Positions 1 to 20,972 of a stretch of DNA of 20,972 nucleotides are shown piece by piece; within the stretch, counting starts at the first letter, position 1; every line of letters begins with the position of its first letter. Both the position numbers and the translations under genes were made by a program. The DNA comes from a virus. Location of the stretch: positions 1 through 20,972 of the IMG/VR virus record IMGVR_UViG_3300006916_000502. One strand, 5' to 3'. Below the pieces are notes generated by a model. It was not told the DNA's origin and searched no databases. It worked only from the letters and a program-made list of their open reading frames with translations.

Positions 1-190
1 GGAACGAAAGAACCTTGTCGCCCTGACACTGAAAGCAGCGACCGCTTTCGTTGTGTGCGAAATACTCAAGGTAACCGGTGCCATTGCACTTAAAACATTC
101 CTCGCGACCGTAGCGCTTGTCGCCGTCCCAATAAGCGCTGCCGGTGTAAGGGGTGTCCGATGCGAAACGAAAAAAAGTCATTGCAGTCAT
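1..190 (-). CDS. Small zinc-ribbon protein, 3' end off the window
   Basis: An open frame starts with ATG at 190 and runs off the left edge after 63 codons. It was translated by hand. It shows two CxxC pairs, C32-x2-C35 followed by NGTG, and C52-x2-C55 followed by QGD, about 16 residues apart. This spacing resembles one zinc site of the DnaJ cysteine-rich domain, so a structural zinc site is likely. An SD-like GGGAGA lies about 7 nt upstream of the ATG, and a second in-frame ATG is at 181. It follows the 219-521 gene by 28 nt on the same strand and probably shares its promoter. The function is unknown. Small phage zinc ribbons may bind nucleic acid or a host protein, but nothing here decides that. 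Confidence 0.6.
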   Translation of the reverse strand, partial: MTAMTFFRFASDTPYTGSAYWDGDKRYGREECFKCNGTGYLEYFAHNESGRCFQCQGDKVLSF

Positions 191-218
191 CTCCAAATCT
201 CCCTAGTGAGCGGGGCCG

Positions 219-521
219 TTAGGCCGCCGCCCTTTTCAGTTCGCGCCTGACGCAGTTGATGACCATCATCATCCGGCGACGGTTACGGCGCTCGCTAAGG
301 TAACGCCAGTGAGCGTCACCGTTGGCCTTGTCTACGCTCGTCCAAACGTCCCAATGGTCTTGGCCGTTTTTGTACCAGCCGCGAACTACACGCGCCTTGT
401 AGGTTTCCCAGATGTTTTCGACCGGATCGGTTTGAATTTCGATAGTGAAGGTTTCAGCGTCTTGCTCCTTCGCGGCCAAGAAAGTTTTGCTGAAACCGTG
501 GCTAGTGAAATGGCGGATCAT
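219..521 (-). CDS. Hypothetical protein, 100 aa, first gene of a leftward operon
   Basis: I do not recognise this protein. It is rich in Trp and charged residues, has a WETYKARVVRGWYKNG stretch near residues 38-53 and a strongly basic tail (SERRNRRR, then RRELKRAAA). A GGGAGA Shine-Dalgarno sits about 5 nt before the ATG at 521, and a good promoter with an overlapping palindrome lies about 35-60 nt upstream. It is the first gene after the attachment site and terminator, so it belongs to a different transcription unit from the virion operon, possibly an early or regulated region. The basic C-terminus would suit nucleic-acid binding, which is inference only. Confidence 0.7.
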   Translation of the reverse strand: MIRHFTSHGFSKTFLAAKEQDAETFTIEIQTDPVENIWETYKARVVRGWYKNGQDHWDVWTSVDKANGDAHWRYLSERRNRRRMMMVINCVRRELKRAAA

Positions 522-553
522 TTTGTGTCTCCCTGTGTTTCTCTTACCCTCTC

Positions 554-582
554 AATATAAGGTGCTTATCGTTCAACGACAA
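554..582 (-). promoter_or_regulatory. Sigma70-like promoter, leftward
   Basis: Read on the minus strand, a -35 TTGTCG (577-582) and a -10 TATATT (554-559) are separated by exactly 17 bp. They match the TTGACA/TATAAT consensus at 4/6 and 5/6 positions. Transcription would start near 547, leaving a short leader with a GGGAGA ribosome-binding site before the ATG at 521. It sits just beyond the minus-strand terminator of the late operon, as expected for a fresh transcription start. Confidence 0.6.
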
Positions 583-584
583 GC
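564..584. promoter_or_regulatory. Operator-like 21-bp palindrome over the promoter
   Basis: The half-sites GCTTATCGT and ACGACAAGC flank a TCA centre, giving a 9-3-9 inverted repeat with one mismatch. It covers the -35 box and most of the spacer of the promoter at 554-582, so a bound dimeric repressor would block RNA polymerase. The size and position fit a helix-turn-helix phage repressor operator (CI/Cro type). The binding protein is not encoded in this window, so its identity is open. Confidence 0.5.
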
Positions 585-600
585 ATTAAACACAAAAAAG

Positions 601-619
601 GTACGGTTTTCGGTACGGT
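601..619 (+). repeat. Paired GTACGGT repeats, left arm of the attachment site
   Basis: The heptamer GTACGGT occurs at 601-607 and 613-619, a direct repeat with 12-bp periodicity. The same pair recurs at 834-850 on the other side of the tRNA-derived core. Short direct repeats flanking a tRNA 3' end at about 70-150 bp are what tyrosine integrases use as arm-type sites. Binding by the integrase or by an excisionase is inferred. Confidence 0.55.
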
Positions 620-623
620 CACC

Positions 624-659
624 AAAAAAAGAGCCGTCAAGGTGAAGACCCTGACGGCT
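624..659 (-). terminator. Rho-independent terminator, leftward
   Basis: On the minus strand a 12-bp stem (AGCCGTCAGGGT with ACCTTGACGGCT, loop CTTC) is followed by C and seven T (624-630). The one imperfect pair is G-U in minus-strand RNA but A-C in plus-strand RNA, which confirms the direction. It would end leftward transcription of the late operon before the next promoter. Because it lies about 30 nt after the tRNA 3' end, it would also serve the rebuilt tRNA-Pro gene in a lysogen. Confidence 0.85.
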
Positions 660-661
660 AT

Positions 662-853
662 TTATTCAATGATTACTGATGGATGGTGCTGGTCGGAGCG
701 AGAGGATTCGAACCTCCGACCCCCTGCTCCCGAAGCCGCTTTTTTGCGTATCTGATCCGTCAGAAACCGTTGAAAACCGTCATTTTCTGCAAAAAGACGG
801 TTAACACAGTGAGCCAGCATACGCCAGAAAAAGGTACGGTCGGGTACGGTCAT
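662..853 (-). CDS. Doubtful 63-aa ORF reading through the attP core
   Basis: The ATG at 853 overlaps the stop of the 850-1095 gene as ATGA, the same coupling used across the operon. This is the only reason to list it. Its second half (GGRRFESSRSDQ) is simply the translation of the tRNA segment, its first codons lie in the GTACGGT repeats, and there is no separate Shine-Dalgarno. Most likely it is incidental, although ribosomes finishing the upstream gene could re-initiate here. Confidence 0.2.
   Translation of the reverse strand: MTVPDRTFFWRMLAHCVNRLFAENDGFQRFLTDQIRKKAASGAGGRRFESSRSDQHHPSVIIE
690..736 (-). other. attP core: 3' part of a tRNA-Pro(CGG) gene
   Basis: The minus strand reads as the 3' half of a tRNA: anticodon loop TTCGGGA (728-734, anticodon CGG), 3' anticodon-stem strand GCAGG, a short variable region, T-arm with GGTTCGAATCC, acceptor strand and encoded CCA (690-692). 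The 5' side of the anticodon stem should read CCTGC but is only matched for its last two bases, and no D-arm or 5' acceptor strand follows. It is therefore a partial gene. This is the classic core of an attP that restores the tRNA after integration, with identity beginning at the anticodon loop. Confidence 0.85.
751..802 (+). repeat. Helically phased CCGT repeats and inverted AACCGTC/GACGGTT
   Basis: Three consecutive 10-mers at 751-780 each end in CCGT (at 757, 767 and 777), the last two as AAACCGT. This exact one-turn spacing places them on one face of the helix. The last copy also forms a perfect 7-bp inverted repeat, AACCGTC (775-781) with GACGGTT (796-802). They share the ACCGT core with the GTACGGT arm repeats in inverse orientation. 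A recombination directionality factor or integrase array is the natural reading, by inference. Confidence 0.5.
834..850 (+). repeat. Paired GTACGGT repeats, right arm of the attachment site
   Basis: GTACGGT occurs at 834-840 and 844-850, with 10-bp periodicity, matching the pair at 601-619. The second copy touches the stop codon of the last late gene (850-852). Together with the left pair it brackets the tRNA core, as arm-type integrase sites would. Confidence 0.55.
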
Positions 854-1095
854 CGAGCAAAGGTAGCGACGTTGGTGGGTTTGCCGCCCACGCCCTGGCG
901 GCGTGATCGCTTGCGGCGAACGGCTGAATCTCTTTCAGCCTTGGTCATGCGGGCAGCTTTCGCTGCCGGCACACATTTGGGATAGCCTCGTTTGCTTTTA
1001 GAGGCTGATGATCTGCCGCACTTCTGGAAGCCGCCGCCCTTTTTTGGGGCGCTAATGTCTACCCAGTCCTGCTTGAACCACTTCTTCAGGCTCAT
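850..1095 (-). CDS. Small basic Cys-containing protein, 81 aa
   Basis: The protein is strongly basic. It begins MSLKKWFKQDWVDI, followed by APKKGGGFQKCGR, SKRGYPKCVPAAKAARM and AVRRKRSRRQ. I recall closely similar small proteins from marine phages, but I cannot name a family with confidence. Cys26 and Cys41 lie 15 residues apart and might pair or bind a metal. The start overlaps the upstream stop as ATGA. It is the last gene of the late operon, and its stop touches the att arm repeats. The charge suggests binding to DNA or RNA. The role is unknown. Confidence 0.75.
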   Translation of the reverse strand: MSLKKWFKQDWVDISAPKKGGGFQKCGRSSASKSKRGYPKCVPAAKAARMTKAERDSAVRRKRSRRQGVGGKPTNVATFAR

Positions 1096-1265
1096 GGCTT
1101 TTTGCCTCGATACTTGCCGCCACGCTTTTTGTATTCACGCACCAGCCAGGCATTGGCATAGGCCGATGGATAAACATCGAACTTGCGCTTGGCCGCAGCT
1201 TTCACAGTGGCGTATAGCTTGGGGTTGGTTGGCTTGGGGCCACCTGATTTTTTCTTGGGAGGCAC
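1092..1265 (-). CDS. Small basic protein, 57 aa (DUF5872-like?)
   Basis: This gene was found by hand translation. The GTG start at 1265 is preceded by GAGG at 6 nt, and the stop TGA is at 1092-1094. The sequence begins MPPKKKSGGPKPTNPKLY, has a middle KAAAKRKFDVYPSAYANAW and ends EYKKRGGKYRGKKP. The FDVYPSAYAN..LVREYKKRGG core matches my memory of the DUF5872-type small domain in phages and environmental genomes, a memory I cannot verify here. It has about one-quarter Lys plus Arg. The stop overlaps the next start as ATGA, and the gene follows the 42-aa Arg-rich protein by 8 nt. Confidence 0.75.
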   Translation of the reverse strand: MPPKKKSGGPKPTNPKLYATVKAAAKRKFDVYPSAYANAWLVREYKKRGGKYRGKKP

Positions 1266-1273
1266 AACAGACC

Positions 1274-1402
1274 TCAGACGCGGCGCAGGCTACGGCCACC
1301 CATACGGCCGCCACGGCGGGCGGCTGTGCGACGGCTTGCCTTCTTGGCGCTGGCCTTTTTCGGCATGGCCTTCTTCTTCATAGTCTTACGCATACCCATC
1401 AT
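1274..1402 (-). CDS. Protamine-like Arg/Lys-rich peptide, 42 aa
   Basis: This gene was found by hand translation. The ATG at 1402 lies 8 nt after an AAGGAAGGA Shine-Dalgarno, and the stop is at 1274-1276. The peptide is almost wholly Lys, Arg, Ala and Gly, for example KTMKKKAMPKKASAKK followed by ASRRTAARRGGRMGGRSLRR. It overlaps the end of the upstream CPYA gene by 17 nt. In-frame ATGs at 1399 and 1393 are alternatives. A peptide of this composition would bind nucleic acid or membranes non-specifically. It could be packaged, condense DNA, or act in lysis. No function is established by the sequence. Confidence 0.7.
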   Translation of the reverse strand: MMGMRKTMKKKAMPKKASAKKASRRTAARRGGRMGGRSLRRV

Positions 1403-1901
1403 TGGCTTGTTCCTTCCTTGCTGAGATGTAGGAGAGATCGGCGTCAGAAAAGTTGGTGTAATACTCAGTCTTGCTGAGCTGGTCAGACGCCTGGGTTAAG
1501 TGATCGAGGGATTGAACCAAGATCACGCCGTAGTCACCCACAGAGCTTTCGATTTCAGTCTCTATCGGGTGGTCATCGCCAAGTGGATGAAAGCCCATCA
1601 TCCACACGCCATGATGCTGTTTGTTCTGTTCGTTGAGGTAGTCCTGCAAGCCTTCCGGTGTAACTTTGTGAACATCCATGAAGCAGATCACGATCACCGC
1701 CTCAGATGCGGGATCAAACTTCAACTTGTGTTCAGCCGCTCTCTCATGGCTGTCCACAACTTCAACCGCAACCAGGTTCTTCAGCACAGCAGATCTGGCG
1801 TAAGGACAAGGTGCCATGCCAGCGAAGTAGCCATCAGGCACCGACAAAACCTCATGCACCCACAGGCGCACCTCAGCCGCAACGGCCTCTAGCAGTCCCA
1901 C
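1386..1901 (-). CDS. Hypothetical protein with CPYA motif, 171 aa
   Basis: I do not recognise a named family with certainty. The visible landmarks are an N-terminal helix (EVRLWVHEVL), APCPYARSAVL at residues 30-40 with Cys32 as C-P-Y-A, a hydrophobic strand SEAVIVICFMD at 66-76, and GVWMMGFHPLGDDHP around 98-111. Helix, CPYA, strand and GFHP recall the DUF1415-like and phage proteins of the CP(Y/F)A type, possibly an alpha/beta thioredoxin-like fold. That placement is weak inference. The GTG start at 1901 overlaps the upstream gene by 13 nt and has no clear Shine-Dalgarno, so it probably depends on translational coupling. It sits between basic-protein genes after the lysis genes. Confidence 0.7.
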   Translation of the reverse strand: MGLLEAVAAEVRLWVHEVLSVPDGYFAGMAPCPYARSAVLKNLVAVEVVDSHERAAEHKLKFDPASEAVIVICFMDVHKVTPEGLQDYLNEQNKQHHGVWMMGFHPLGDDHPIETEIESSVGDYGVILVQSLDHLTQASDQLSKTEYYTNFSDADLSYISARKEQANDGYA

Positions 1902-2158
1902 TTACGCAGTGCCTTGTTGATACGACTATTCGGATCACGCGCCGTCTTCTTGCTGGTGAGCTTCTTCTTCATGCCACTCATCCGCGCACAGAAGGACTTG
2001 CGCCGTGCTGCCGCCTTGGGCGACTTCTTGGCCTGCTTTTTAGATACAGGCGCTTTCAGGTTCATGCCGGCACGCTTGGCCGATGCACGGCCCTTGCGGT
2101 TCAGACCACCAGACGGCGACTTGCCAGCCTTGCGTGTCCAGGCTGGTGACTTAGGCAT
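1889..2158 (-). CDS. Small basic protein, 89 aa (DUF6321-like?)
   Basis: The protein begins MPKSPAWTRKAGKSPSGGLN, continues with RKGRASAKRAG and KKQAKKSPKAAARRKSFCAR, then MSGMKKKLTSKKTARDPNSR and NKALRKW. The SPAWTRK..GGLN..GR and KSFCARMSGM..KLT motifs are typical of a small basic family I recall from marine phages, probably the one catalogued as DUF6321. I chose the ATG at 2158, with GAGGG 9 nt upstream. A TTG start at 2164 would add two residues. It overlaps the lysozyme gene by 8 nt. The charge implies nucleic-acid contact, and the function is unknown. Confidence 0.8.
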   Translation of the reverse strand: MPKSPAWTRKAGKSPSGGLNRKGRASAKRAGMNLKAPVSKKQAKKSPKAAARRKSFCARMSGMKKKLTSKKTARDPNSRINKALRKWDC

Positions 2159-2600
2159 TGGCAAGATCCCTCATGCGCTTGACCAAACGCTTGGCGCGAT
2201 TTGGCACCTGGTCGTGCCAGCGGGAATCGACCATCTCATCCGCAGCGGCGTCGAACCGGCGGGCATCGACCTCACGCTTCATACCGACGAATTTGCTCAG
2301 ACGCGGACGGCCCATATTGAACATCATATTTGCAATGATGAGCTGGGCTTCTTCTGGCAGTTCATCGAAATCATCGTAGAGGCTGCGGCAGTCTTCAATC
2401 GTCACAGCTATGTCCAAGGTGAACACCTGGCGCACCCGCTCCTCATCAACCGGCGTGCCTACTGGCTGGCCGTGTTCTGGGTCATCTTCTTTGACCAGGT
2501 GGCCTATACCAAATGTCGGCAGGCCGAGGTGATCGAGGTAGATTTCAAACTTGCAGCCCTCGTCCTCAGCCAGCTCCTCGCGCAGCTTGTCCTTGTTCAT
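2151..2600 (-). CDS. Endolysin, T4-type lysozyme (GH24 muramidase)
   Basis: This enzyme hydrolyses the MurNAc-GlcNAc bonds of peptidoglycan at lysis. The N-terminus carries the complete T4 lysozyme active-site spacing: Glu14, Asp23 and Thr29 (E-x8-D-x5-T), corresponding to Glu11, Asp20 and Thr26 of T4 gpe, followed by FGIGHL. A later AQLIIANMMFNMG segment matches the conserved helix of the C-terminal lobe. At 149 residues it is close to the usual length. There is no signal peptide or SAR anchor, so the enzyme should wait in the cytoplasm for a large-hole holin, encoded directly upstream with an ATGA overlap (2597-2600). Confidence 0.93.
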   Translation of the reverse strand: MNKDKLREELAEDEGCKFEIYLDHLGLPTFGIGHLVKEDDPEHGQPVGTPVDEERVRQVFTLDIAVTIEDCRSLYDDFDELPEEAQLIIANMMFNMGRPRLSKFVGMKREVDARRFDAAADEMVDSRWHDQVPNRAKRLVKRMRDLANA

Positions 2601-2968
2601 TTCTTTGCCTTCACCTTGCCAACAACGCCCTCAAGCATCCCGCCGCCAAAGTAAAAGGCTAGGATGGTCAGCATTGCTTCACCGAGATAGAAGTCATCTA
2701 TGACTTGCTTGATGTCAGGGATGTTGGTTTTGCCCAGTAACGTCATCACCAGCACCAGCGCGAAAGACGCCAAAAAGGTGGCAGTGAACATCAGGGCCAG
2801 ATAGCGCTGGGCCACTTTGAATGGGGCAAACGCCTTCATTGTGTCGATCTTGGCTTGCGCCTTTACACGCTCCATTTCTTCATCGGAGCTGTGGACATCA
2901 TCAATGAGATCCATGCCCTTCTTGATTACATCGCCATTGCCAAGAATGGATGCCAATACTCCAAGCAT
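2597..2968 (-). CDS. Probable holin
   Basis: The protein has 123 residues. It has a charged N-terminal helix (GMDLIDDVHSSDEEMERVKA), then two clear membrane segments at about 57-78 (LALMFTATFLASFALVLVMTL) and 95-116, and a basic C-terminus KVKAKK. The DD.HSSDEE motif followed by APFKVAQRYLALMF matches the phage holin type related to the GTA-holin/3TM group, where a short first hydrophobic helix may be the third segment. It would form the inner-membrane lesion that releases the lysozyme, whose gene it overlaps as ATGA. It starts by a TAATG overlap with the EF-hand gene. Confidence 0.8.
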   Translation of the reverse strand: MLGVLASILGNGDVIKKGMDLIDDVHSSDEEMERVKAQAKIDTMKAFAPFKVAQRYLALMFTATFLASFALVLVMTLLGKTNIPDIKQVIDDFYLGEAMLTILAFYFGGGMLEGVVGKVKAKK

Positions 2969-3288
2969 TACTTTTTGTCTCCCAGTTGCGTGAAGCCCAT
3001 GTAAGCGCCCACAACGCCGCTCAACGAGATGTAAAGCAGCGGGCTGACCTCACTGAGTAACTTGATGCGGGTGTCGGGTATGAAGGGCATGAACAGCAAG
3101 ATCGTGTAGACGCCCATACCCATCAGAGCGAACCGTGCCAGCCTGAGCTGCGCCAGGTGCTTGCGGCTTTTGTCTTCTGTCTCGCGTATCTCGCGGGCGC
3201 GTTCTATTTCTGCGTCTGTGACTACGCCATCATTGTCGAGGTCATAGCGATCAAACTCGCTCGACCTCTGCAGCTTTTTCTGGGCCAC
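2968..3288 (-). CDS. EF-hand membrane protein, possible lysis regulator or second holin
   Basis: A canonical EF-hand loop lies at residues 16-27 (DLDNDGVVTDAE: Asp16, Asp18, Asp20, Thr24 and Glu27 as ligands, Gly21 at the turn). It is followed by a charged helix and two membrane segments at about 51-70 and 82-101. I recall related EF-hand plus two-TM proteins from uncultured marine phages. The GTG start overlaps the upstream stop (TAGTG), and the downstream holin starts by TAATG. Its place directly ahead of holin and lysozyme suggests a holin partner or antiholin that senses Ca2+ or Mg2+. Only one EF loop is present, so binding might need dimerisation. Confidence 0.8.
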   Translation of the reverse strand: MAQKKLQRSSEFDRYDLDNDGVVTDAEIERAREIRETEDKSRKHLAQLRLARFALMGMGVYTILLFMPFIPDTRIKLLSEVSPLLYISLSGVVGAYMGFTQLGDKK

Positions 3289-5273
3289 TAAGGAACGTTT
3301 CTGCCCAACAGTTGAAGCGCCACATCGCCAGCGCCCATGTTGGATGCCGCTGTGCCAGCACCACCGGCTGCTGTTTGAGGGTTGATGATGATGCGTGTCA
3401 GGCGCGGCAGCAGGCTGGGCGCGTGCTTGCGAAGCACTGCCTTGATGCCAGTGCCACGCAGATCACGGCTGATCGCTTGCAGATTCGCACCATCTGTTTC
3501 AGTCAGCATTTTGGACAGCTCACTAGCGACCTCTGTCACTTGGTCTTGCTCCAGTGTTTTGAAGTCAGCGCTAATTGATCGACGCACCAAGTCGGTCAGG
3601 CCAGTCACAGGATCACGCGCAGCGCCTTCTTTGATGCGACCAGTAAACTCACCACGCAACGCCGTTTGACTTCCACCAAGCACCGCACGCGAGGTGTCAC
3701 GCATGATGATTTCATCGTTCAAGCGGCTTAGGAATTTATCAGCAGCCACCTTGCCTTCTTCTGTCTGCGGGAATGTAAGGCGCAGCAGCCGTTGGCGCAT
3801 GGGACTGCGGACAAGCCTGTTGGCTGCTGTCCGCTCAGCGCCACTGTCAATTTCGTTGATGATGCCTTGCATCGCGCCAAGCCGGAAACCTTCAAGCTCA
3901 GAGCCAGACATATTGTTTACCAAATCAGCCAGCTCATCAGGGTTGGCACGCAGGAAGGTGCGCCCAGTGTTCATCGCATCCATAACTGCAGATTTGCCAG
4001 ACCAATAGTTTCGGGCGATCCGGTAGCTGGGGTTGGCTTCATCAAGCAGCTCAATGAAGGCCTGGCGAGTATTACGCGCAGCCGCAGCATAATCACGACC
4101 TGACTGGCTGGAGATCGACCCAGCATTGAAAGCCTCATCGTCTAGGCCACGCTTGACATAGTGCATGAAGCGAGTCGGCAAAGTGCGGACAACCGTGCCT
4201 TTCGGGCCGATCAGTTTGCCGTTTGCAGCGACGTTAAACTTGGGCAAATTGACGCCTTCCTCAGCGGCAATGTCATAAGCCCGTTTCAGTGCGCCCTGTA
4301 CTGCAGGCCGGCTAAACAGCCCCTCAAGATCTTGATTGATCCTTACTGAGTTCCTGTAAGCGCGGGCATACAGCTTGTCGCCGGTCACCTTACGAGCCAC
4401 TTGTAGCGCCTTAAACTCATCAAAAAACGCGGCTCTACTGCCAAACGCATCCTGCAAGTCGGTAGACAGGCGCTGTAAGATACCTTGGTCACGCAGCCGC
4501 AGGAAGTTCTGCGCTTGCCCCTTGCCTGGCCCTGGCAGCACATTCACGGCATCAAGGAGAGCCTGACTGTTGGGGCCGAGGTCAGCCAGAGTGTACGGCT
4601 TGCCGGTTGTATTCTTGTTCAGCACATAAAGGACAGCTTCCTCAACCGACTGCGCGTCGTTTTCAAGGGCTTCCTGCAGCAGCTCCCTTGCCTGCTGACG
4701 TGCCAGCGCTTTAGGGCCGCGCAGGGTGCGCGTGGCTGCGGCGGCTACGTTTGCTATTGGCTTAGAAGCAAGCTCAACTGCCGGCGCAGTCACGCCGCCA
4801 GCAGCCATGCCAACCGCTGTATCAGGCAACCGCTCTGTTGGCGTGCCTTCACTAGCGCCGTAACCAAACGCGCCACCGTAGGCCATGCCTGGCAGTATTT
4901 GACCTGTTACGCCAGGTGTGGCTCCTCGACCGCGTGTTAAAGCCACGTTGCCAGCGGTGCCAACAAGCTGTTCAATCGTTGACGCGACTGGCCGCTCTGT
5001 AGAACTTTGCTCCAACTGGCCACGTTCAATCATCACTGCGTTGTTGTAGCTCAAACCAGGCGTGACCGCAGACCGTAGGTAACCTAAAATCTCGTCGCCG
5101 GTATTAAAGGTCAAACCCTGCAACAGATTTGCCACGCGAGGGCCAGTGACAGCGCCAGACTCAATCGCATCCAGAGTAGCTTTGCCCTCTGGGCTGAGGC
5201 GGTTGTCAAACTCTGCATCTTTGAGAGCTTGCCGATAGGTCTGCAACCTTTCAAAATTTGTCTTTTCGCTCAT
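3288..5273 (-). CDS. Internal virion / DNA ejection protein, 661 aa
   Basis: This is the largest of three consecutive proteins placed after the tail genes, where podoviruses encode their ejection proteins (T7 gp14-15-16, P22 gp7-20-16). It is mainly helical and has a glycine/alanine-rich stretch near residues 105-165 (GMAYGGAFGYGASEGTP, AVGMAAGGVTAPAV) that could insert into or cross the host envelope. The C-terminal half is highly charged and helical. I see no transglycosylase motif. It overlaps the upstream gene as ATGA at 5270-5273. The role is assigned by position and composition rather than by a recognised motif. Confidence 0.75.
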   Translation of the reverse strand: MSEKTNFERLQTYRQALKDAEFDNRLSPEGKATLDAIESGAVTGPRVANLLQGLTFNTGDEILGYLRSAVTPGLSYNNAVMIERGQLEQSSTERPVASTIEQLVGTAGNVALTRGRGATPGVTGQILPGMAYGGAFGYGASEGTPTERLPDTAVGMAAGGVTAPAVELASKPIANVAAAATRTLRGPKALARQQARELLQEALENDAQSVEEAVLYVLNKNTTGKPYTLADLGPNSQALLDAVNVLPGPGKGQAQNFLRLRDQGILQRLSTDLQDAFGSRAAFFDEFKALQVARKVTGDKLYARAYRNSVRINQDLEGLFSRPAVQGALKRAYDIAAEEGVNLPKFNVAANGKLIGPKGTVVRTLPTRFMHYVKRGLDDEAFNAGSISSQSGRDYAAAARNTRQAFIELLDEANPSYRIARNYWSGKSAVMDAMNTGRTFLRANPDELADLVNNMSGSELEGFRLGAMQGIINEIDSGAERTAANRLVRSPMRQRLLRLTFPQTEEGKVAADKFLSRLNDEIIMRDTSRAVLGGSQTALRGEFTGRIKEGAARDPVTGLTDLVRRSISADFKTLEQDQVTEVASELSKMLTETDGANLQAISRDLRGTGIKAVLRKHAPSLLPRLTRIIINPQTAAGGAGTAASNMGAGDVALQLLGRNVP

Positions 5274-6517
5274 TGCCCTGGTGCCTCCATCAAGCCCATG
5301 TTGACCAAATCGGCAATCGGATCATCTGCGGTCACAGATGCTGCCGGCGTGCCTGTCAGGCGCTCAAATTCTGCTTTGAGTGCATTGGCAGATTCTGTGA
5401 AAAGTGGGTTGGTTTGCTGAAATTCAAGCAAATGCTCACCGAGTTTGAAGCGGCCAGTTGGGTCTTCCATGATCTGTGGGTTGCTGCGAATGAATCGGTT
5501 GGCCTCTTGGAACAAGGCCACATTTCGCGCTTCACTAATTCTGATGGCCTGCAGAAGTAGCTTGTTACCGGCTGTTGAATTAGACAGTCTTGGCGAGGCT
5601 TGGCTAATGAAACGCAAGTCCGCGTCAGTTGGGTTGTAACCAAGCTGCTTGACACGCGGCAGCACTAGCTCATTTGCCGCCGCAAGGAATTGCTCTTTAC
5701 CGGCAACGTCTTTCAAATCAAAGTCTGGGTTGAAAAACTGACCAATGCGCTGGAAGGTCAGCGCTGTTTCTGCGCCGAAACCAGTGTCTATTTCATGAAG
5801 CAACCCAAGCATTTGATCGACACGAGACAAAGCTGTCGTCGAGGCCGTCGCTGCTTCTTCAAGGGTGTCAAACTTCTTCAGCAACCCTTTGCCGGATTCT
5901 TTGGCCATATCGACGTTGATGTTTGTTGTCGGTGCCGTGCCGCCGATCTGCGTAATTTTGTTGCTGCGATTTGATCGTTGGTACTTTTGACCTCTGCTTG
6001 TGTCCAGCCCGGCCTCTTTGGCTTGCTGGTCAGTCAATGGGCTAAATGTTTCTGGCGCAGCCCTGCGCTGCACAAGACTGCCGATATTAGTGCTTTGTGC
6101 GCCAGTCAGCGGGCTTGTCGTTTTATTTTGCACAAACGCCATGTCGCCCTTATCTACCACGCTTGACGTAGTGGTCGGCTGCAACAAGGCTGACATCATT
6201 GCCGGCTCGAAAGTACCAGGTGCAGCTTGAACCATAGCGCGGATTTGCGGCGATACGTTTTCTGGTAGCGCACCCATTAGCGCCTCTGTAGCCTGCGCCT
6301 CACGTTGCGCCTGACCTTCAAGCGCGTTGCGCTGCAGATACGCCCCGACAAGTGCGCTAGACAGCCTGCCAAGCCCCTGTAGAGGCGTCCTGACAGGTGC
6401 TGAGCTTGCACCCTGCTGAGCGAGTGCCTGGCCCATGATACGGCGCGGATCTGACTGATAAGCAGGGTTCAGCCGCTGGAAGCCAAACGTGGGCATTGCG
6501 CGTGGTCTAAGTGCCAT
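5270..6517 (-). CDS. Internal virion / DNA ejection protein, 415 aa
   Basis: This is the middle member of the ejection-protein trio. The N-terminal 100 residues are Ala/Gln-rich and helical (RRIMGQALAQQGASSAPVRT, GQAQREAQATEALMGALPEN). A Thr/Ser-rich linker spans about 110-200, and the C-terminal 200 residues are helical with a QANRFIRSNPQIMEDPTGRF segment. An AGAGGT Shine-Dalgarno lies 5 nt before the ATG at 6517. Proteins of this kind recur in marine podoviruses between the other two ejection proteins. The specific role within the ejection apparatus cannot be told from sequence. Confidence 0.7.
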   Translation of the reverse strand: MALRPRAMPTFGFQRLNPAYQSDPRRIMGQALAQQGASSAPVRTPLQGLGRLSSALVGAYLQRNALEGQAQREAQATEALMGALPENVSPQIRAMVQAAPGTFEPAMMSALLQPTTTSSVVDKGDMAFVQNKTTSPLTGAQSTNIGSLVQRRAAPETFSPLTDQQAKEAGLDTSRGQKYQRSNRSNKITQIGGTAPTTNINVDMAKESGKGLLKKFDTLEEAATASTTALSRVDQMLGLLHEIDTGFGAETALTFQRIGQFFNPDFDLKDVAGKEQFLAAANELVLPRVKQLGYNPTDADLRFISQASPRLSNSTAGNKLLLQAIRISEARNVALFQEANRFIRSNPQIMEDPTGRFKLGEHLLEFQQTNPLFTESANALKAEFERLTGTPAASVTADDPIADLVNMGLMEAPGQ

Positions 6518-6526
6518 TGTGTACCT

Positions 6527-7705
6527 CTATGAAAGCAAGTAAGCCGCACCCAGGTTGCCGGCCAGACCGAACAACCCGCCAAGGTTTGCAGAACGGTTCT
6601 GCATCGCCTGGTTGTAAGCATTAGCCTGCGCCGCAGACTGAGCGCCGTAAGCACCCATGACATCAACAGAACCAGGCGCAAAGAAGCTGGCCTGCTGCAC
6701 TTGCGGGCCACCGAGCAACGCTGCCAGCTCATTGAAGCCCTGGCTGCGTAGCGCTTGCCGCTCAGCGATCTGCCGGTTGCGGCTTTGATTAGCGATCTGA
6801 TTGCTCAGGAGCTGGTCAGCCACTTGCTGCTGGCGTGCAGCGTTCTGGAGCTGGGTGTTAGCTGCTGCCTGGCTGAACGCCTGGCCCTGACGTGCTAGGC
6901 CAAACTCACCAGTTGCGGCCCGCTCACCAAACTGCTGGGCGCGGATGTTGCGTGCCTGGTTGACCAGGCGATCAGATTCCTGACCCGCTGCCAGCGTGGC
7001 CTGCTGTGCGAGACGCTGCAGTTGTTCATTCTGCTGTGTCTCAAGCCGCCCAATAGCGCTGTCATAAGCCTCAGACGTAATCGGGATGCCACGGTCTGCC
7101 AGGTTCTGTTCTAGGCTGTTGCGCTGCCGCGAAAACTCTGGCTGCAGCAAACCGAGCTGCCTGTTGAACAGCGTTTGCTCAACATTGCTGCGGAAGCCCT
7201 CTGGATCGCTTGTGAGGGCTGTCAGGCCGCTTGTATCGAGTGTAGACGGCAGGGCTGCATCAGTGCTGATGTTTTGCTGGAACGCCTGCAAGCCAGTGGT
7301 TGGGTCAATCTCCTGTGCGGCGCTGATGCCAGACAGTGTGGGCGAGGTGCGGAAAGGGTTCTGGAAATCAGGGTCATCCGCAAAGATAGGTGAGCCATCA
7401 GGGTTTTGACCTATAACGGTCTGGCCGGTCACTCGCTCAAACGCCAGATTGCCAAGACCCAAACCAGTGCCTTCTGTAGCGGCGCGGAGCTGTGCCTGGA
7501 ACGGCGTTTCTTGCGTAAAGGCTGCAGACTGGAAATCGCTGTCTTCCGGCGCTTGCCCCTGCACAAACTGCCCCTGGTCACCGACATACCCGAACAGCAA
7601 ATTGCCGTAAGGGGTAAACTGCGTGATCCGGTTGGCGTCTGCCTGAGCTGAAATCAGCTCATTAGGATCAGGCGCTGGCGGTGGTGTAGGTGCGCTCTTG
7701 CCCAT
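6527..7705 (-). CDS. Virion / DNA ejection protein, 392 aa, single lysine
   Basis: It begins MGKSAPTPPPAPDPNELI, an N-terminus I have seen on structural proteins of many podoviruses. The middle has a conserved-looking LLQPEFSRQRNSLEQNLADR segment followed by GIPITSEAYDSAIGRLE. A long Gln/Ala-rich coiled-coil region fills about residues 215-330, and the C-terminus is hydrophobic and glycine-rich (NLGGLFGLAGNLGAAYLLS). The layout of coiled coil plus amphipathic tail suits a T7 gp14-like protein that enters the host membrane. In 392 residues there is only one lysine, Lys3, which follows Gly2. It overlaps the GNAT gene by 38 nt. Confidence 0.75.
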   Translation of the reverse strand: MGKSAPTPPPAPDPNELISAQADANRITQFTPYGNLLFGYVGDQGQFVQGQAPEDSDFQSAAFTQETPFQAQLRAATEGTGLGLGNLAFERVTGQTVIGQNPDGSPIFADDPDFQNPFRTSPTLSGISAAQEIDPTTGLQAFQQNISTDAALPSTLDTSGLTALTSDPEGFRSNVEQTLFNRQLGLLQPEFSRQRNSLEQNLADRGIPITSEAYDSAIGRLETQQNEQLQRLAQQATLAAGQESDRLVNQARNIRAQQFGERAATGEFGLARQGQAFSQAAANTQLQNAARQQQVADQLLSNQIANQSRNRQIAERQALRSQGFNELAALLGGPQVQQASFFAPGSVDVMGAYGAQSAAQANAYNQAMQNRSANLGGLFGLAGNLGAAYLLS

Positions 7706-8117
7706 CTGTTACTCCGATCCACTTACATTCTTGTTTCAACATTCCGAAAAGCACCGCGTCGTGCTTGCCGAACATCTTCCGCAGCCGGCCTTCCTCTACA
7801 AAGCCAAGCTGCCGGTTCATCTTCATCGCCTTGTCATTGGCCTCGCTGCACGTCACCAGCAGGCGCTTGGCACCCACCTGGATGAACGGATATGCAAACA
7901 GGCCAAACAGGACAGACCGATTTGCCCATCGCTGGGAGGAAGCAGCTATTGACGCCTCGATCTGCCCATCTCGATAGTCGTGATACACACAGGCCGCGAT
8001 GATCTCGCCGTCACGTTGCACCCCGATGGCCGTGCTAGGCCCGAATCCGTCAATGCCAATACGTTGAGCCGCCCAGCGCTTCAGGTAGTCATCAGCGCCA
8101 AAGATCAGACGGTTCAT
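7668..8117 (-). CDS. GNAT-family N-acetyltransferase-like protein, 149 aa
   Basis: The sequence shows the GNAT pattern: beta strands STAIGVQRDGEIIAACVYHD at about residues 28-47, a helix RSVLFGLFAYPFIQVGAKRL, the strand LLVTC, and the motif-B segment SEANDKAMKMNRQLGFVEEG at 91-110. The acetyl-CoA loop (usually Q/RxxGxG/A) is poorly preserved (ASSQRWANR), so catalysis is uncertain. Such proteins are common beside the ejection genes of marine T7-like phages and may modify a virion protein or act as structural parts. The start overlaps the upstream stop as TAATG. The last residues run 38 nt into the next gene. Confidence 0.8.
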   Translation of the reverse strand: MNRLIFGADDYLKRWAAQRIGIDGFGPSTAIGVQRDGEIIAACVYHDYRDGQIEASIAASSQRWANRSVLFGLFAYPFIQVGAKRLLVTCSEANDKAMKMNRQLGFVEEGRLRKMFGKHDAVLFGMLKQECKWIGVTDGQERTYTTASA

Positions 8118-9459: not shown

Positions 9460-12261
9460 CTAGCTGGACTCAAGTGTGGCTATACGTGCGTTAGCCTCAT
9501 CAAGTTGTTGCTTCAGTTCTTTGACAGCATTGACCAGATACCAAGTCATGTTGTCTGGGTCTACAGACATACATCCAGTGCTTTCTGTCTTCACCATATC
9601 TGGCAGCACTGTCTGGATTTCTTGGGCGATGACGCCAAGCTGTGCGCCTTGTTTGTCGATGGCACAAGTGCCTGACAGTTCTGTGATTTCATCTGCCGTG
9701 CGGTACTCAAAATTCCTGACTTGCACTTGCATGATTTCTGCAAGGCCGGTGTTGTTGTCTTCGATGTTCTTCTTGATGCGCCGGTCAGACGTAGTAGACC
9801 ACGATGAGGAGTTGTTGCCTTGATATACGCCACCACCTTGCGGGTTGATATATCCAGCACTGTTGCCCTTACCAATAGAACCGGGAGTGCCGACGATAAT
9901 ACTGTTTGTTACTCCCGCAGCATTTCCATTTGTCCTGTCGCCAATGAATACGTTTGAACTGCCTGTTGTCACAGACGTTCCATCAGCACCAGCCTGACGG
10001 CCAATCAAAATATTGTTAGCACCTGTTGTTAGGCCAGCACCTGCAAAAGAACCTAAAAGTGTATCTTGAGAAGCTGTGGTGATACTCTGTCCAGCCCTTT
10101 CACCAATAAGAGTATTAGCACCTCCTGTTGTCAGGGTAGTGCCAGCATTAAACCCTAAAGCGGTATTTTCTGTGCCAGTTGTACACGCATCAAGGACAGA
10201 GTGTCCTATAGCCGTGTTACTACCGCCACTTGTCAGTGCGGCAAGGGCGTTGTAGCCCACAGCAGTAGTATTACTTCCAGTTTGATTTGTTAAGGCGTTG
10301 TATCCGACAGCGGTGTTGTTTGCGCCAGTGGTGGTTGCGTCGAGTGCGTTTGCTCCTACGGCTGTATTCTGTGCGCCAGTTGTGTTTGCGCCAAGAGCAA
10401 CATGGCCTATCGCCGTGTTGTTGTTTGCTGTGGTATTCGCGTCTAATGCGCGTCGGCCCACTGCTGTGTTTTGACCACCCGTAGTGTTATTTTCCATAGC
10501 CCTACGGCCAATAGCAGTATTTTGGTCGCCAGTCGTATTTGCGGTTAGCGCACCCTCACCAACGGCAACAAGTTCAACACCCGATGTACTAGCATCAAGT
10601 GCGTTTGAACCAACCCCTGTATTGTTGTTGGCTGTGCTTGCAGTCAAGACGTTGTATCCAACTGCGGTGTTATTCGATTGAGTTGTGACTGCGTCGAGTG
10701 CGTTTGTTCCCACCGCAGTATTGAAAGAACCGGTGGTGTTGGAAAACAACGCCTGACGACCTATGCCGACATTCCAATCAGCAGAAGTATTGCTAGATAA
10801 AGCGTTGTATCCGACAGCCGTGTTGTTCGCACCGTCAATATTTGCGTCGAGGGTGTAGTTGCCAATGGCAATATTCTCACTGCCGGTGGTGTTTGCAGCG
10901 AGTGGATTGAAACCTACGGCTGTATTGTTGTTTGCGGTTGTGTTTGCGAACAACGCACCCTTACCGACAGCAGTGTTGTAGCTGCCAGTCGTATTTGTGT
11001 GTAACGCTTCATACCCAAGCGCAGTTCCGGCATCTCCTGTTGTATTAGATGTTGCGGCCTCATACCCAACTGCCACATTTCTTGGGCCGGTGGTGTTTGC
11101 GAACAATGCGCTATCACCCACAGCCGTGTTGTTGCTGGCAGTGGTGTTAGAATACAAAGCAACCGTTCCAATAGCCGTGTTGTTTGCACCTGATGAAGTG
11201 TTGTACCCCGCACTAGAACCGACTGCCACGTTGCGTGTGCCAGAAGTGTTAGTCTCTAGTGCTTGGTTGCCGACAGCCGTGTTGCTTGCGCCAGTGTTAT
11301 TCGTTAGCGCATTTGTGCCGATGGCAGTGTTGTAATTGCCTGTAGAGGCATCCAGAGCAGTATCACCCAACGCCACGTTGTTCGTGCCAGTCGGATAGTT
11401 ACCGTCCAGCTTAATCGTGCCGCCGTCCACGCTGACGTTGCCAGCAACGGTGAGGCCGTCTGTCGTGATGGTGCCGGTATTGTCAATATCGCCAGTGCCG
11501 GTGATGTTGTTGCTGTTCAGGTCGAGGTTGCCGCCAAGCTGCGGGGTTGTGTCCTCAGACACATTTTGCAGAGCTGAGTCAGCAGTCGAACCTTGAGCTG
11601 CTGTCGCGTAGTCAGCGGAATTAAAGGATTTGACTTGCGCTAGGTTGGTGACCTCGCTGTCCATCAACGCACCAGCAGCCGTCACATTGGCTGTGTCCGT
11701 AACATCAGCCGACGCCTCAATGCCATCGAGCTTAGAGCCGTCAGTGGCTAGGTCACGGCCATCGACCGTGCCGCCCACAGTGATATTGCCGGCGATTGCA
11801 GTTGTGCTGGACGCAGCGGTAGCGTTAGGGGTCAAGGTAAGCTGCGAGACAAAGCTGCCGCTGATCTTGCTATTTATGCTAAGCGTGCCACCATCCGCGA
11901 CGTTGACCTTCCACTGGTCAGCGTTGTCATCGCCCTGGTCAGCCTTCAGCACAACGCCGAGAGCCGCCCCTTCTACGTTGGCCGCGATCTCAAGTGCATT
12001 ATTGGTCGTCTCGTCATACTGGATGGTGACATCGCTGTCGGTGCCAAATACCAGGGTCTTGTCATCAGGGATGGTCAGACCTTCAGCAAAAGGTACAGCC
12101 GCAGTGCAAGTCTGAGTGCCGTCTTTTAGGATACAGGTGGACAGGCCAGTAGCCATGCCGTCAAATTCTTCATCCATGCGCGAGGCAAGGATTTTGACCC
12201 CATTGTCCCTGTCTGTCGTCCAGTCATAAAGACGCGAGAAAACGCCGCCGGAAAATGCCAT
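9460..12261 (-). CDS. Tail fibre/spike with 17-residue repeats and S74 autocleaving chaperone
   Basis: This is probably the receptor-binding fibre. Residues 1-60 (MAFSGGVFSRLYDWTTDRDN, then KILASRMDEEFDGMATGL) form the virion-attachment end typical of marine phage fibres. A beta-rich shaft runs to about 290. About 29 degenerate 17-residue repeats of the form NTAVGxxALxxNTTGxx fill 294-791. From Ser825 (SDRRIKKNI) to the end is a peptidase-S74 intramolecular chaperone. In this family the domain trimerises the fibre and then cuts itself off next to the conserved Ser. The terminal helix (AVKELKQQLDEANARIATL) is a coiled coil. The mature fibre would be about 824 residues. The start overlaps the hub stop as TAATG. 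Confidence 0.92.
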   Translation of the reverse strand: MAFSGGVFSRLYDWTTDRDNGVKILASRMDEEFDGMATGLSTCILKDGTQTCTAAVPFAEGLTIPDDKTLVFGTDSDVTIQYDETTNNALEIAANVEGAALGVVLKADQGDDNADQWKVNVADGGTLSINSKISGSFVSQLTLTPNATAASSTTAIAGNITVGGTVDGRDLATDGSKLDGIEASADVTDTANVTAAGALMDSEVTNLAQVKSFNSADYATAAQGSTADSALQNVSEDTTPQLGGNLDLNSNNITGTGDIDNTGTITTDGLTVAGNVSVDGGTIKLDGNYPTGTNNVALGDTALDASTGNYNTAIGTNALTNNTGASNTAVGNQALETNTSGTRNVAVGSSAGYNTSSGANNTAIGTVALYSNTTASNNTAVGDSALFANTTGPRNVAVGYEAATSNTTGDAGTALGYEALHTNTTGSYNTAVGKGALFANTTANNNTAVGFNPLAANTTGSENIAIGNYTLDANIDGANNTAVGYNALSSNTSADWNVGIGRQALFSNTTGSFNTAVGTNALDAVTTQSNNTAVGYNVLTASTANNNTGVGSNALDASTSGVELVAVGEGALTANTTGDQNTAIGRRAMENNTTGGQNTAVGRRALDANTTANNNTAIGHVALGANTTGAQNTAVGANALDATTTGANNTAVGYNALTNQTGSNTTAVGYNALAALTSGGSNTAIGHSVLDACTTGTENTALGFNAGTTLTTGGANTLIGERAGQSITTASQDTLLGSFAGAGLTTGANNILIGRQAGADGTSVTTGSSNVFIGDRTNGNAAGVTNSIIVGTPGSIGKGNSAGYINPQGGGVYQGNNSSSWSTTSDRRIKKNIEDNNTGLAEIMQVQVRNFEYRTADEITELSGTCAIDKQGAQLGVIAQEIQTVLPDMVKTESTGCMSVDPDNMTWYLVNAVKELKQQLDEANARIATLESS
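9889..11379 (-). repeat. About 29 degenerate 51-bp coding repeats
   Basis: The tail-fibre gene contains a tandem array with 51-bp (17-codon) period. Each unit encodes N-[TV]-A-[VI]-G-x-x-A-L-x-x-N-T-T-G-x-x. A few units are 15, 16 or 20 residues long. The units differ at many third positions, so the array is old or selected at protein level rather than freshly expanded. The regular period suggests a trimeric beta-roll or beta-helix in which each unit adds one turn. Confidence 0.9.
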
Positions 12262-15472: not shown

Positions 15473-16417
15473 CTAGGTATGGATGACGCCTTGCAGCGCA
15501 CGGTTGGAACAGGTCAGGTTGCCCGACCAGAACATCGGCGTTACAAGCGCATCTTGGTTGACGGACATCCGCGCCTCACCAGGCACGAAATCACGACCGG
15601 CAGCGACTTCCATCCGCAGATAATCTGTGTTCAGGAAGTACATACGGTCGGTGTTACAGGCGTCATCGAACACGACATCCGAGTTCAGATACTGGACGCT
15701 GGTGAAACCAGAGTTAGCCAGATCGTCGCTGGTGATGCGCTGGATGGCCTGCAGGCTTCCGAGGAAAGCCTTGTAGGCGTTGGTGCCGGCCATAACCAGG
15801 TCAGGCGAGTCAGCGCCGCGAACAAGCTGCAGATAGATGTTGTTCATATCTGCCTGCACGTTTGCTGTGCTGAAAGCGTTAGACGTGGCAGTGGTCTGCA
15901 CGTTTTGCCAGAAGGTGTAGGTCGAGGAGTTAATCCCGCCCACAGTGCCGGTGCCGGCATCAGCTACAACGAGCTGAAGGCCACCGACTTCCTTGCCGTC
16001 GCTGCCGGTGCCATCGGAGTAGATAGCAGTCGAAAGCGTGTTCATCATCGACTTCTCAAGGACGTTAACACGCGCCTCAAGCAGATTGATGATGGCCTCA
16101 GTGCCGGAGTTTTTGACTTGCTCCAGGCCGCTGATGGTGACGTTACCGGCAAGCTGCTTGTATTCAAACTCAGCAGCCGTCAGCACGTCAGACGGCGATA
16201 CATCGAGGGTTTCGTAGCCGCTGTAGAACTGAACAGTTCCGTTTGCAGCATACTCAAGTTCACGCACGATAGAACGGCCAGTCACAGTGGTCTGGTTGCC
16301 GTTTTCGCGCATCCGACGCAGCAACGCATTGTGGTTGCTTACGTTGTCAGAGAGCTGTCGTGACCGGTTGCGAAGCGTGGTCGTGACAATCTCTGAGAGG
16401 TTTGGGCTGGTTGCCAT
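15473..16417 (-). CDS. Major capsid protein
   Basis: The protein has 314 residues and follows the scaffold gene. The N-terminal region (NLSEIVTTTLRNRSRQLSDN, then NHNALLRRMRENGN) is a helical arm, followed by YANGTVQFYSGYETLDVSP, a long helix EAIINLLEARVNVLEKSMMN, and a C-terminal half with DLVMAGTNAYKAFLGSLQAI and VVFDDACNTDRMYFLNTDYL. The VVFDD....DRMYFLNT pattern near the C-terminus is typical of HK97-fold capsid proteins in this phage group. GGAAGGT lies about 6 nt before the ATG. It would self-assemble with the scaffold around the portal into the procapsid. Confidence 0.92.
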   Translation of the reverse strand: MATSPNLSEIVTTTLRNRSRQLSDNVSNHNALLRRMRENGNQTTVTGRSIVRELEYAANGTVQFYSGYETLDVSPSDVLTAAEFEYKQLAGNVTISGLEQVKNSGTEAIINLLEARVNVLEKSMMNTLSTAIYSDGTGSDGKEVGGLQLVVADAGTGTVGGINSSTYTFWQNVQTTATSNAFSTANVQADMNNIYLQLVRGADSPDLVMAGTNAYKAFLGSLQAIQRITSDDLANSGFTSVQYLNSDVVFDDACNTDRMYFLNTDYLRMEVAAGRDFVPGEARMSVNQDALVTPMFWSGNLTCSNRALQGVIHT

Positions 16418-18924: not shown

Positions 18925-19307
18925 TGCTTGCCCTTTCTTGATCTGAAGCCCCTGCACTCAACGCCCTTGCCAAGCACCGAGCGCAGATGCTCCCTGCCCT
19001 CGCGCACCATCTGGCCGACGCCGCCCCAGGGCGCTATAAAATCAACAATCCAGAGACGGTCGCCTGCGTTCCAATCATCAGGCTGCAGCTTTCTGGTTCG
19101 CTTAACATAGCCCTGTTCAATCTCCTCATTGAACAAGCCCCAGGTAACAAAGCCGACCGGCTGATGCTCCACTTGCCAGATTCTAAATTGCTTCAGAGCA
19201 ACAGGCGGCAAGATCAGCCGGTGAACGTCGTGTATTGTCCAATTGCAGTGCTGTTCACTCTGGCCCATGAGCCAGGTCATCATGCCAACTGCCTCAGTGT
19301 TCTTCAC
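18906..19307 (-). CDS. HlyC-type RTX toxin-activating lysine acyltransferase homologue
   Basis: HlyC-family enzymes move a fatty acyl chain from acyl-ACP to internal lysines of a protein, classically pro-RTX toxins. The 133 residues align over the core of HlyC: TWLMGQSEQHCNW (His20, matching HlyC His23), LILPPVALKQFRIW, PVGFVTWGLFNEEIE, then DDWNAGDRLWIVDFIAPWGG with Asp89 (matching Asp92). Both catalytic residues are present. It is shorter than HlyC (170 aa), lacking the C-terminal part. The GTG start overlaps the portal stop as GTGA, so it is made with the capsid proteins. No RTX toxin is encoded nearby, so the substrate is unknown and might be a virion protein. Confidence 0.88.
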   Translation of the reverse strand: MKNTEAVGMMTWLMGQSEQHCNWTIHDVHRLILPPVALKQFRIWQVEHQPVGFVTWGLFNEEIEQGYVKRTRKLQPDDWNAGDRLWIVDFIAPWGGVGQMVREGREHLRSVLGKGVECRGFRSRKGKQCFGLT

Positions 19308-20972
19308 TGCGTCACCACCTTGGCCGCATCAATCTCCAGCTTCTGCTGCTTAAACTGGGCATCTTGCGCCGCCTTCTGCTGATCGAGCTGCAGACGCGCT
19401 ACCTTCACCTGGGCATCAGCAGCAGCTTGGTCTGCCTGCGCCTGTACCTTGGCAGCTTCAACCTCAACCAGTTTATCAGCCGGGTTGGGCCTGCCCTGCG
19501 GGGGCTGGATTGCCTCAAGCGTGTCCTCAAGATCACGCGCACCAGGGAACGCCCTGGCAGCAAACAGCAGCATCTGCTTGGCTTGCTCAAAGCCAATGGC
19601 ACCAGAGCTGACCATCGGGCCAATCGCCTGCAGAAACTGCACTGTCGCTGTCAGAAACTCTGTGCGGCGCTGCTGTTCAATCGCGCTGTCTACGGCTTGG
19701 CTTTCGTCAGTGTCGATGCTGATGCGATAGCTACGCAAACGCTCATCACGCATCAATGCAACCGCCTCTGGCGATACCGGAACGCCGGTAATGCGCGAAA
19801 GCAGCTCAGGCTCCAGGTTCTCGACCATCAGCTCAGCCTTCAGCTCCAGAATCTGGTCAAGGAACATCTCAATGCAGCGCTGGCGGTTCACCAGGCGCAT
19901 CGCACCGAACTGACCCTTGATACGCTGGGCTGTCGCTGTCTCACGGCTGGCACTAGAGCCACGCATAATGTCCGAGATGCCAGTGATCTCATAGATCGTC
20001 TGGATTACGATCTGACGCGACTGATAGAGCTGCGCCAGAGCCTTGATAAGATTATCAAGCGGCGCTTCCTGCATCACATTGGCAAGACCGCCACCAGCCT
20101 GCAGCATGGCCATGTTGTCCACCGGCACAAACTCATTGTCCGATGCACCCGCAAGACGCTGCAGCTCTTGGAACGATGCGTCATATACACCGCGCCGCTT
20201 CAGCGCTTCTGTCAAATTAGCAATCCGCTGCGTAATCAGATCAAGCTCATAGAGCTGATCCTCATAGGTCAGGATCTCAGGGACAGGAAGCGTAGTATCG
20301 GTGGTCGATACGGCATACAGAGGCTCTGGAATAGGCCAGAAACCGTCCAGATTGTACGGATCATCGAACTCCTCAAGCAACTCATCATAGTCGGCAGCAA
20401 TAAAGATCTGCTTGCCTGACCGCTTGTCCCAAATCTCATAGATTTCAGCCCGATCCGGCTGCTTGTTGTCCTCGTAGGCGTCACCCTCATCGCCGCGATA
20501 GCTCAGCGGGATCATTTCGCCTTTTGGGCCGTAATAATCGACCAGTTCCTGCCTGGTCATAAGGTGACGGAAGCCAATCCACGTTACATCAGGCCAGCCA
20601 CGCGCCGGCGACATCACAAAGTCTTCCCAATGCACATATTCGCACCGGATTGACTGTTCACCGACATATTCGACCGGCTCACCCAGCACATACGGCCCCA
20701 TTGGGCCTTGCATGACCATGCCGGCGTCTACCTGGTTGCCTTCAGCGTCTACAAACGCGCTGCCGATCGGCACATCACCGATCTGGCCTGGCGCAACCTC
20801 ACCGATGCCAGTGATTGGCTGCTGGCGCACCGGGATCATCTCAGGATCACCCTCGACCACCACCGGCTCATAGGTAACCCGCAGAACACCGCGACCAACG
20901 ATTAAATAGTCCTCAATCGCCCGCCGAACAGCCATGTCAAAGTTGTAGACATCGAGCTGATACTGCAGCCCA
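19304..20972 (-). CDS. Portal protein (P22-like), N-terminus off the window
   Basis: The reading frame is open to the right edge. The ATG at 20935 is internal, because 12 further codons precede it (GLQYQLDVYNFD). At least 555 residues are visible. Podovirus portal landmarks include EDYLIVGRGVLRVTYEPV, SIRCEYVHWEDFVMSPARGW, a stem and wing region, TIYEITGISDIMRGSSASRE and TATAQRIKGQFGAMRLVNRQ. The C-terminal 70 residues are one long Ala/Gln/Lys helix (QAAADAQVKVARLQLDQQKA), as in the P22 portal barrel. It forms the dodecameric DNA channel at one capsid vertex. The terminase should lie just upstream, beyond the window. The stop overlaps the acyltransferase start as GTGA. Confidence 0.92.
   Translation of the reverse strand, partial: GLQYQLDVYNFDMAVRRAIEDYLIVGRGVLRVTYEPVVVEGDPEMIPVRQQPITGIGEVAPGQIGDVPIGSAFVDAEGNQVDAGMVMQGPMGPYVLGEPVEYVGEQSIRCEYVHWEDFVMSPARGWPDVTWIGFRHLMTRQELVDYYGPKGEMIPLSYRGDEGDAYEDNKQPDRAEIYEIWDKRSGKQIFIAADYDELLEEFDDPYNLDGFWPIPEPLYAVSTTDTTLPVPEILTYEDQLYELDLITQRIANLTEALKRRGVYDASFQELQRLAGASDNEFVPVDNMAMLQAGGGLANVMQEAPLDNLIKALAQLYQSRQIVIQTIYEITGISDIMRGSSASRETATAQRIKGQFGAMRLVNRQRCIEMFLDQILELKAELMVENLEPELLSRITGVPVSPEAVALMRDERLRSYRISIDTDESQAVDSAIEQQRRTEFLTATVQFLQAIGPMVSSGAIGFEQAKQMLLFAARAFPGARDLEDTLEAIQPPQGRPNPADKLVEVEAAKVQAQADQAAADAQVKVARLQLDQQKAAQDAQFKQQKLEIDAAKVVTQ

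Follow-up and report, generated by a model that had tools for sequence, protein, structure and literature searches.

Tyrosine integrases that insert phage genomes into tRNA genes have been characterized in several systems, and the mycobacteriophages of cluster K are among the closest to the locus described here. In that cluster, attP lies 5' of the tyrosine integrase gene, paired arm repeats flank a core derived from the 3' end of a tRNA or tmRNA gene, and a stem-loop terminator is located between core and arm (PMC3203893). Arm sites and integrase N-termini of these phages (CrimD, Anaya and Adephagia; Pixie versus Tweety) change in matching fashion, including between close relatives with the same core, through a few substitutions within K1 or between integrases that are only 44% identical (Pixie/Tweety) (PMC3203893). 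A related case was described for the IntF and IntB-F prophages of Oenococcus oeni, whose integrases are 92% identical and differ mainly within their first 66 aa; distinct direct repeats flanking a common attB core led the authors to propose co-evolution, and the case presented there is one pair at one target (PMC8074189). tRNA fragments have also been used for host prediction, as uncultured marine phages were given hosts by an exact tRNA fragment beside the integrase (some to SAR116), with the authors warning that such calls are broad (PMC3861242).

The locus analyzed here, positions 601-850 of a linear 20,972-bp fragment that constitutes an entire IMG/VR record (hereafter, the window), shares the cluster K arrangement of attP, arm repeats, core and terminator, as well as the occurrence of close relatives with the same core, differing arm sites and matching N-terminal changes. 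Unlike in cluster K, integrases can be identical here except for an entirely different N-terminal domain, with both arms differing as well, and arm types are combined with different target tRNAs. The integrases resemble Lambda and Tn916-type recombinases (classified in PMC8138268) in the order of a putative N-terminal DNA-binding domain followed by core-binding and catalytic domains, with a predicted strands-plus-helix N-terminus.

The attP locus and its phage

A sequence-only reading of the window had noted a 47-bp tRNA segment bracketed by GTACGGT pairs, which was confirmed by an exact match to tRNA-Pro(CGG) and by four repeats (Table 1). The window contains no complete tRNA according to ARAGORN and Rfam, and 690-736 (minus-strand sequence GCTTCGGGAGCAGGGGGTCGGAGGTTCGAATCCTCTCGCTCCGACCA) is therefore a half gene. 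The same reading had proposed a search for the segment within complete tRNA-Pro(CGG) genes, and of the 80 listed genome stretches (alphaproteobacteria), 77 contain the identical 47 bp inside a complete gene called by ARAGORN. The exact core is also present in six further viral contigs and is common to five related phage contigs. When an attL was simulated by joining a host 5' half to the core and the phage left flank, ARAGORN reported tRNA-Pro(CGG), and no tRNA was reported for the simulated attR or for attP. The core is thus the 3' part of a host-type tRNA gene that is restored in silico upon integration, which supports the proposed integration specificity for tRNA-Pro(CGG).

Table 1 Features of the attP locus and neighboring genes (window coordinates unless a contig is named).
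Feature	Position	Strand	Description
5' part of 207-aa gene	2..196	-	ORF; complete at L007:5326-5949, followed by the integrase
100-aa gene between attP and integrase	222..521	-	ORF; no PHROG or Pfam match
Promoter-like site TTGTCG-17-TATATT	554..582	-	Bare consensus match; 1 found, 0.2 expected; weak
P arm, two putative arm-type repeats GTACGGT	601-607, 613-619	+	12-bp step; near-fixed distance to core in all related attPs
Intrinsic terminator	632..659	-	AGCCGTCAGGGTCTTCACCTTGACGGCT then CTTTTTTT; terminator scan; fold z-score -4.4
attP core	690..736	-	47 bp, exact 3' half of tRNA-Pro(CGG), anticodon loop (5' side) to CCA
P' arm, two putative integrase arm-type repeats GTACGGT	834-840, 844-850	+	10-bp step
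81-aa basic protein	853..1095	-	phrog_23735, 3.6e-25; last late gene before attP
Major head protein	15476..16417	-	phrog_9953, 2.6e-94; marks right side of attP as late genes
Portal protein, Mx8-like	19304..20935	-	phrog_12082, 1.2e-115; tblastn matches to Myxococcus phages Mx8 and Mx9
Tyrosine integrase	L007:4130-5299	-	PF00589, 4.6e-25, above cut-off; outside window; 1,143 bp from core

GTACGGT occurs on either strand of the window only at these four positions, compared to an average of 0.9 per window after shuffling. On the tRNA strand, the terminator immediately follows the tRNA end and precedes the P arm, and visual inspection of the other related attPs revealed a T-run hairpin in the equivalent position; an inserted phage would therefore supply the terminator of the tRNA. 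The promoter-like site, the sole such site before the integrase side, reads toward the 222-521 gene and the integrase. It is overlapped by an imperfect dyad at 563-585 (TGCTTGTCGTTGAACGATAAGCA), a possible repressor operator, and similar dyads are present in contigs L002 and L003.

The window itself has no integrase because the record is a 20,972-bp fragment. Contig L007, which is 99.9% identical to window positions 1-7643 and extends it by 5.75 kb, carries the tyrosine integrase that had been expected in the rest of the phage, and whose absence from the phage genome had been named as counter-evidence. The integrase is accompanied by a small HTH_17-like putative excisionase and a Cro/CI-type repressor. 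On the other side of attP, late genes (portal, head, tail, lysozyme) read leftwards to the core and show a distant likeness to Mx8/Mx9-like phages. With both arms around a single core, phage genes on either side, and the integrase, putative excisionase and repressor of L007, window 601-850 is an intact, non-integrated attP, in line with the earlier view of a virion or circular form and not a prophage end. Its owner is an uncultured marine temperate phage of alphaproteobacteria. GenBank contained no near-identical phage, and all integrase relatives found there were less than 60% identical.

Several neighboring genes were noted separately. In the phage with the second arm type described below (L002), the 222-521 gene is replaced by a different gene of 78 aa (L002:6549-6785). 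The product of positions 9460-12261 is 933 aa long, contains numerous near-repeats (NTAVG...NNTA) and carries a Peptidase_S74 chaperone at its C-terminus; it is a predicted self-trimming tail spike or fiber. A GNAT-like acyltransferase gene (7671-8117, phrog_4470) lies amid the virion genes.

Arm types, integrase types and their exchange

A search of viral sequences with the L007 integrase yielded 46 loci and approximately 40 related attP/integrase pairs, and the same layout was found for every related attP with an integrase. Layout statistics were calculated for 38 attPs with a readable core using 200 shuffles per site; L136, with a core outside the search pattern, was read separately. These 38 attPs have two to three direct repeats on each side of the core in 10-12-bp steps; the distances from the core to the repeat starts are 89-124 bp on the upstream side and 69-94 bp on the downstream side, an arrangement matched by 0 of 200 shuffles per site. 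The distance between attP and integrase ranges from 160 to 1,143 bp among the relatives. Nine arm types were distinguished: type A of the window (ACCGTACC), type B (ACTGTCTC, with the repeat DNA GAGACAGT as counterpart of the type A GTACGGT), and TCCAGTT, TGTTATAG, TGTCCCAG, TGTTGTAG, TTGTTCCAG, TTGTACTAC and TGTTCGCA. In L126-L129 and L131, the 7-mer scan chose TTTTGTT instead of the arm motif, and their GTTATAG repeats were read separately. The cores derive from tRNA-Pro(CGG) and tRNA-Ala(TGC) and, by hand reading, also from tRNA-Asp, -Trp and -Glu. Wherever both could be read, each arm type is paired with one integrase N-terminal type without exception; for type A, the P' arm motif and its distances recur in contigs with the corresponding N-terminus. 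From this co-variation, we infer that the repeats are sites of the integrase N-terminal domain.

An alignment of 25 integrases showed that the Arg boxes, the MGH motif and the Tyr in RQYGH of the catalytic domain are all kept. Tyrosine recombinases usually have HDLRH at the HxxR site, whereas all 25 aligned integrases have GDMRH, with Gly at the position of the His. The N-terminal domain also sets them apart from Lambda and Tn916-type proteins, as it matched no Pfam model, including those for arm-binding domains. Arm-binding domains of this class consist of three strands and a helix. For the N-terminal 65 residues of the present integrase, strands (10-13 and 18-21) and a helix (42-57) were predicted with a pLDDT of 83; the best structural match was a weak one to an AP2 DNA-binding domain (Z 3.7), and Foldseek returned nothing below E 0.001. 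The predicted fold is consistent with an arm-binding domain, without proving it.

Pairwise comparisons of relatives revealed how the two specificities are distributed. The Pro core is common to L099 (arm A; the L007 phage) and L100 (arm B; the L002 phage). The last 310 residues of their integrases are identical, whereas the first ~50 residues are only 57% identical and the arms differ (ACCGTACC versus ACTGTCTC). The same pattern is found for L105 (A) and L107 (B), both with the Ala core. Conversely, L100 and L107 have identical N-termini, but their bodies are 83% identical and their cores are Pro and Ala, respectively. Each of the cores Pro and Ala is thus found with each of the arm types A and B, and a third case of exchange was identified on Ala (L117/L119 versus L126/L127). 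At the DNA level, the N-terminal change stops near codon 46 and is followed by a shared stretch to about codon 79, past which a second change divides Pro from Ala bodies. Within attP, the outer blocks with the arms distinguish A from B, whereas the inner core-terminator block goes with Pro or Ala. Labeling the N-terminal tree by arm type required 8 changes, the fewest that nine types allow, compared to 10 for the body tree; labeling by core required 5 changes for the body tree compared to 8 for the N-terminal tree. Support for the N-terminal tree, which is short, is weak. Judging from these comparisons, the integrase behaves as two exchangeable units, with the N-terminus (~aa 1-46) going with the arm repeats and the body (~aa 80 to the end) with the core.

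Altogether, we are highly confident in assigning window 601-850 to an intact attP that belongs to a temperate tailed phage with an L007-type integrase that would use the arms and the tRNA-Pro(CGG) core. The integrase N-terminal domain would bind the GTACGGT arm repeats, and its core-binding and catalytic domains would bind the tRNA core. Strand exchange would take place near the anticodon loop of the host tRNA-Pro(CGG), as judged from the integrase family; the phage copy of the 3' half would then complete the tRNA gene, and the phage terminator, coming next, would stop transcription of the restored tRNA.

Excisionases and repressors likewise bind direct repeats in the vicinity of att sites, and the operator-like dyad is close to the repeats of the window. 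It is nevertheless improbable that the repeats are sites of one of these proteins and merely hitch-hike with the integrase types, as the arm motif tracks the integrase N-terminus across independent bodies, and the repeats flank the core on both sides at near-fixed distances in the manner of integrase arm sites. The putative excisionase is 98.6% identical between L099 and L100 although their repeats differ; the repeats do not follow it, and it was rejected as their binder. An assignment of 690-736 to a prophage end or a chance tRNA remnant, and not to a working attP, would fit the lack of an integrase in the window and the failure of limited searches to find integrated relatives. This we regard as extremely unlikely, given that several contigs show both arms with phage genes on either side, that core and arms are conserved in phages differing around them, and that the linked open integrase gene keeps most catalytic-box residues.

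The exchange of modules, though not attP itself, would be affected if the swapped N-termini were assembly chimeras of co-occurring phages, since every contig was assembled from metagenome data and the modules lie between homologous stretches. Such chimeras are very unlikely to be the cause: arm B with the Pro core was recovered from two metagenomes (3300018039 and 3300020054) and arm A with the Pro core from several others, and a chimera is not expected to alter both arms and the N-terminus in matching fashion. Moreover, the genes of L099 and L100 differ by ~4% of their DNA throughout the body, so that no strain was simply spliced.

Target gene and probable host

The sequence-only reading had regarded the core as a direct way to find the host. 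It points to the probable integration target, but is a poor host pointer by itself, as the Pro core has exact matches in at least 120 genome stretches, mostly of Rhodobacteraceae by title, and the cores of sister phages point elsewhere. The Ala core of the sister phages was absent from 20 Pro-core genomes and from 395 genomes of one of their families, and the host call to Rhodobacteraceae from the Pro core alone was therefore dropped. Among 385 genomes sampled from the alphaproteobacterial class, 3 contain the Ala core, and two of these 3 belong to one family. Among the 61 genomes of this family, the Pro core is exact in 7 and the Asp core was found in 32 (18 exact and 14 with one change, CCAGAGG, which is also carried by phages L122-L125). 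As the Pro, Ala and Asp cores all occur in this family, the comparison of cores makes it a more likely host group than Rhodobacteraceae. The logic of host prediction is the same as that used for the marine phages mentioned above, and the warning in that study about broad calls is borne out by the present case (PMC3861242).

Searching with the integrase alignment revealed no integrated prophage of this kind in GTDB contigs, the 395 genomes of one family or the 61 genomes of the likely host family, in a limited search with no positive control and a sparsely sampled likely family. A search of the 61 genomes with the head protein phrog_9953 gave no match, nor did it match in control genomes.

Other copies of the core were recorded alongside. 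L005 (G004; 16,761 bp) is another element altogether: an integrase of its own lies close to one end and, unlike the half gene of the window, a complete tRNA-Pro(CGG) with the same core lies close to the other. In Gemmobacter lanyuensis (L147:3788-3834), an exact core without a preceding tRNA 5' half is probably the distal boundary of another element inserted in tRNA-Pro(CGG). In genome G876 of the likely host family, two contigs (L280, C22:1-47; L279, C20:3021-3067) have the 47-bp core as their terminal sequence and would be joined through it, a break that looks as if the core also occurs in another context (phage or integrated element).

Implications of separate arm and target modules

The attP itself is ordinary and intact, and the natural module exchange behind it is unusually clear. 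Relative to the smaller-scale precedents found among open-access papers, outside which a prior description may exist, it adds whole-domain exchange in several target backgrounds. We tentatively suggest, as a possibility rather than an expectation, that arm specificity and target specificity reside in interleaved cassettes that can be exchanged independently (with P' arm, core, P arm, N-terminus and body of the integrase alternating as arm, core, arm, arm, core) and for which the flanking conserved DNA could guide recombination. Arm types may then diversify so that the integrase of one phage spares the att sites of relatives on the same tRNA, and the approximately nine natural pairs might represent a ready-made recognition code for orthogonal integrases.

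For the biology of these phages, the analysis connects an uncultured group with lysogeny, with a target gene and with a probable host family, and serves as a warning that a single tRNA core can indicate the wrong host group. As matched N-terminal domains and arm repeats on common bodies and cores amount to a domain swap performed by nature, sole control of arm specificity by the N-terminal domain is a directly testable rule, and the matched set could supply orthogonal integrases.
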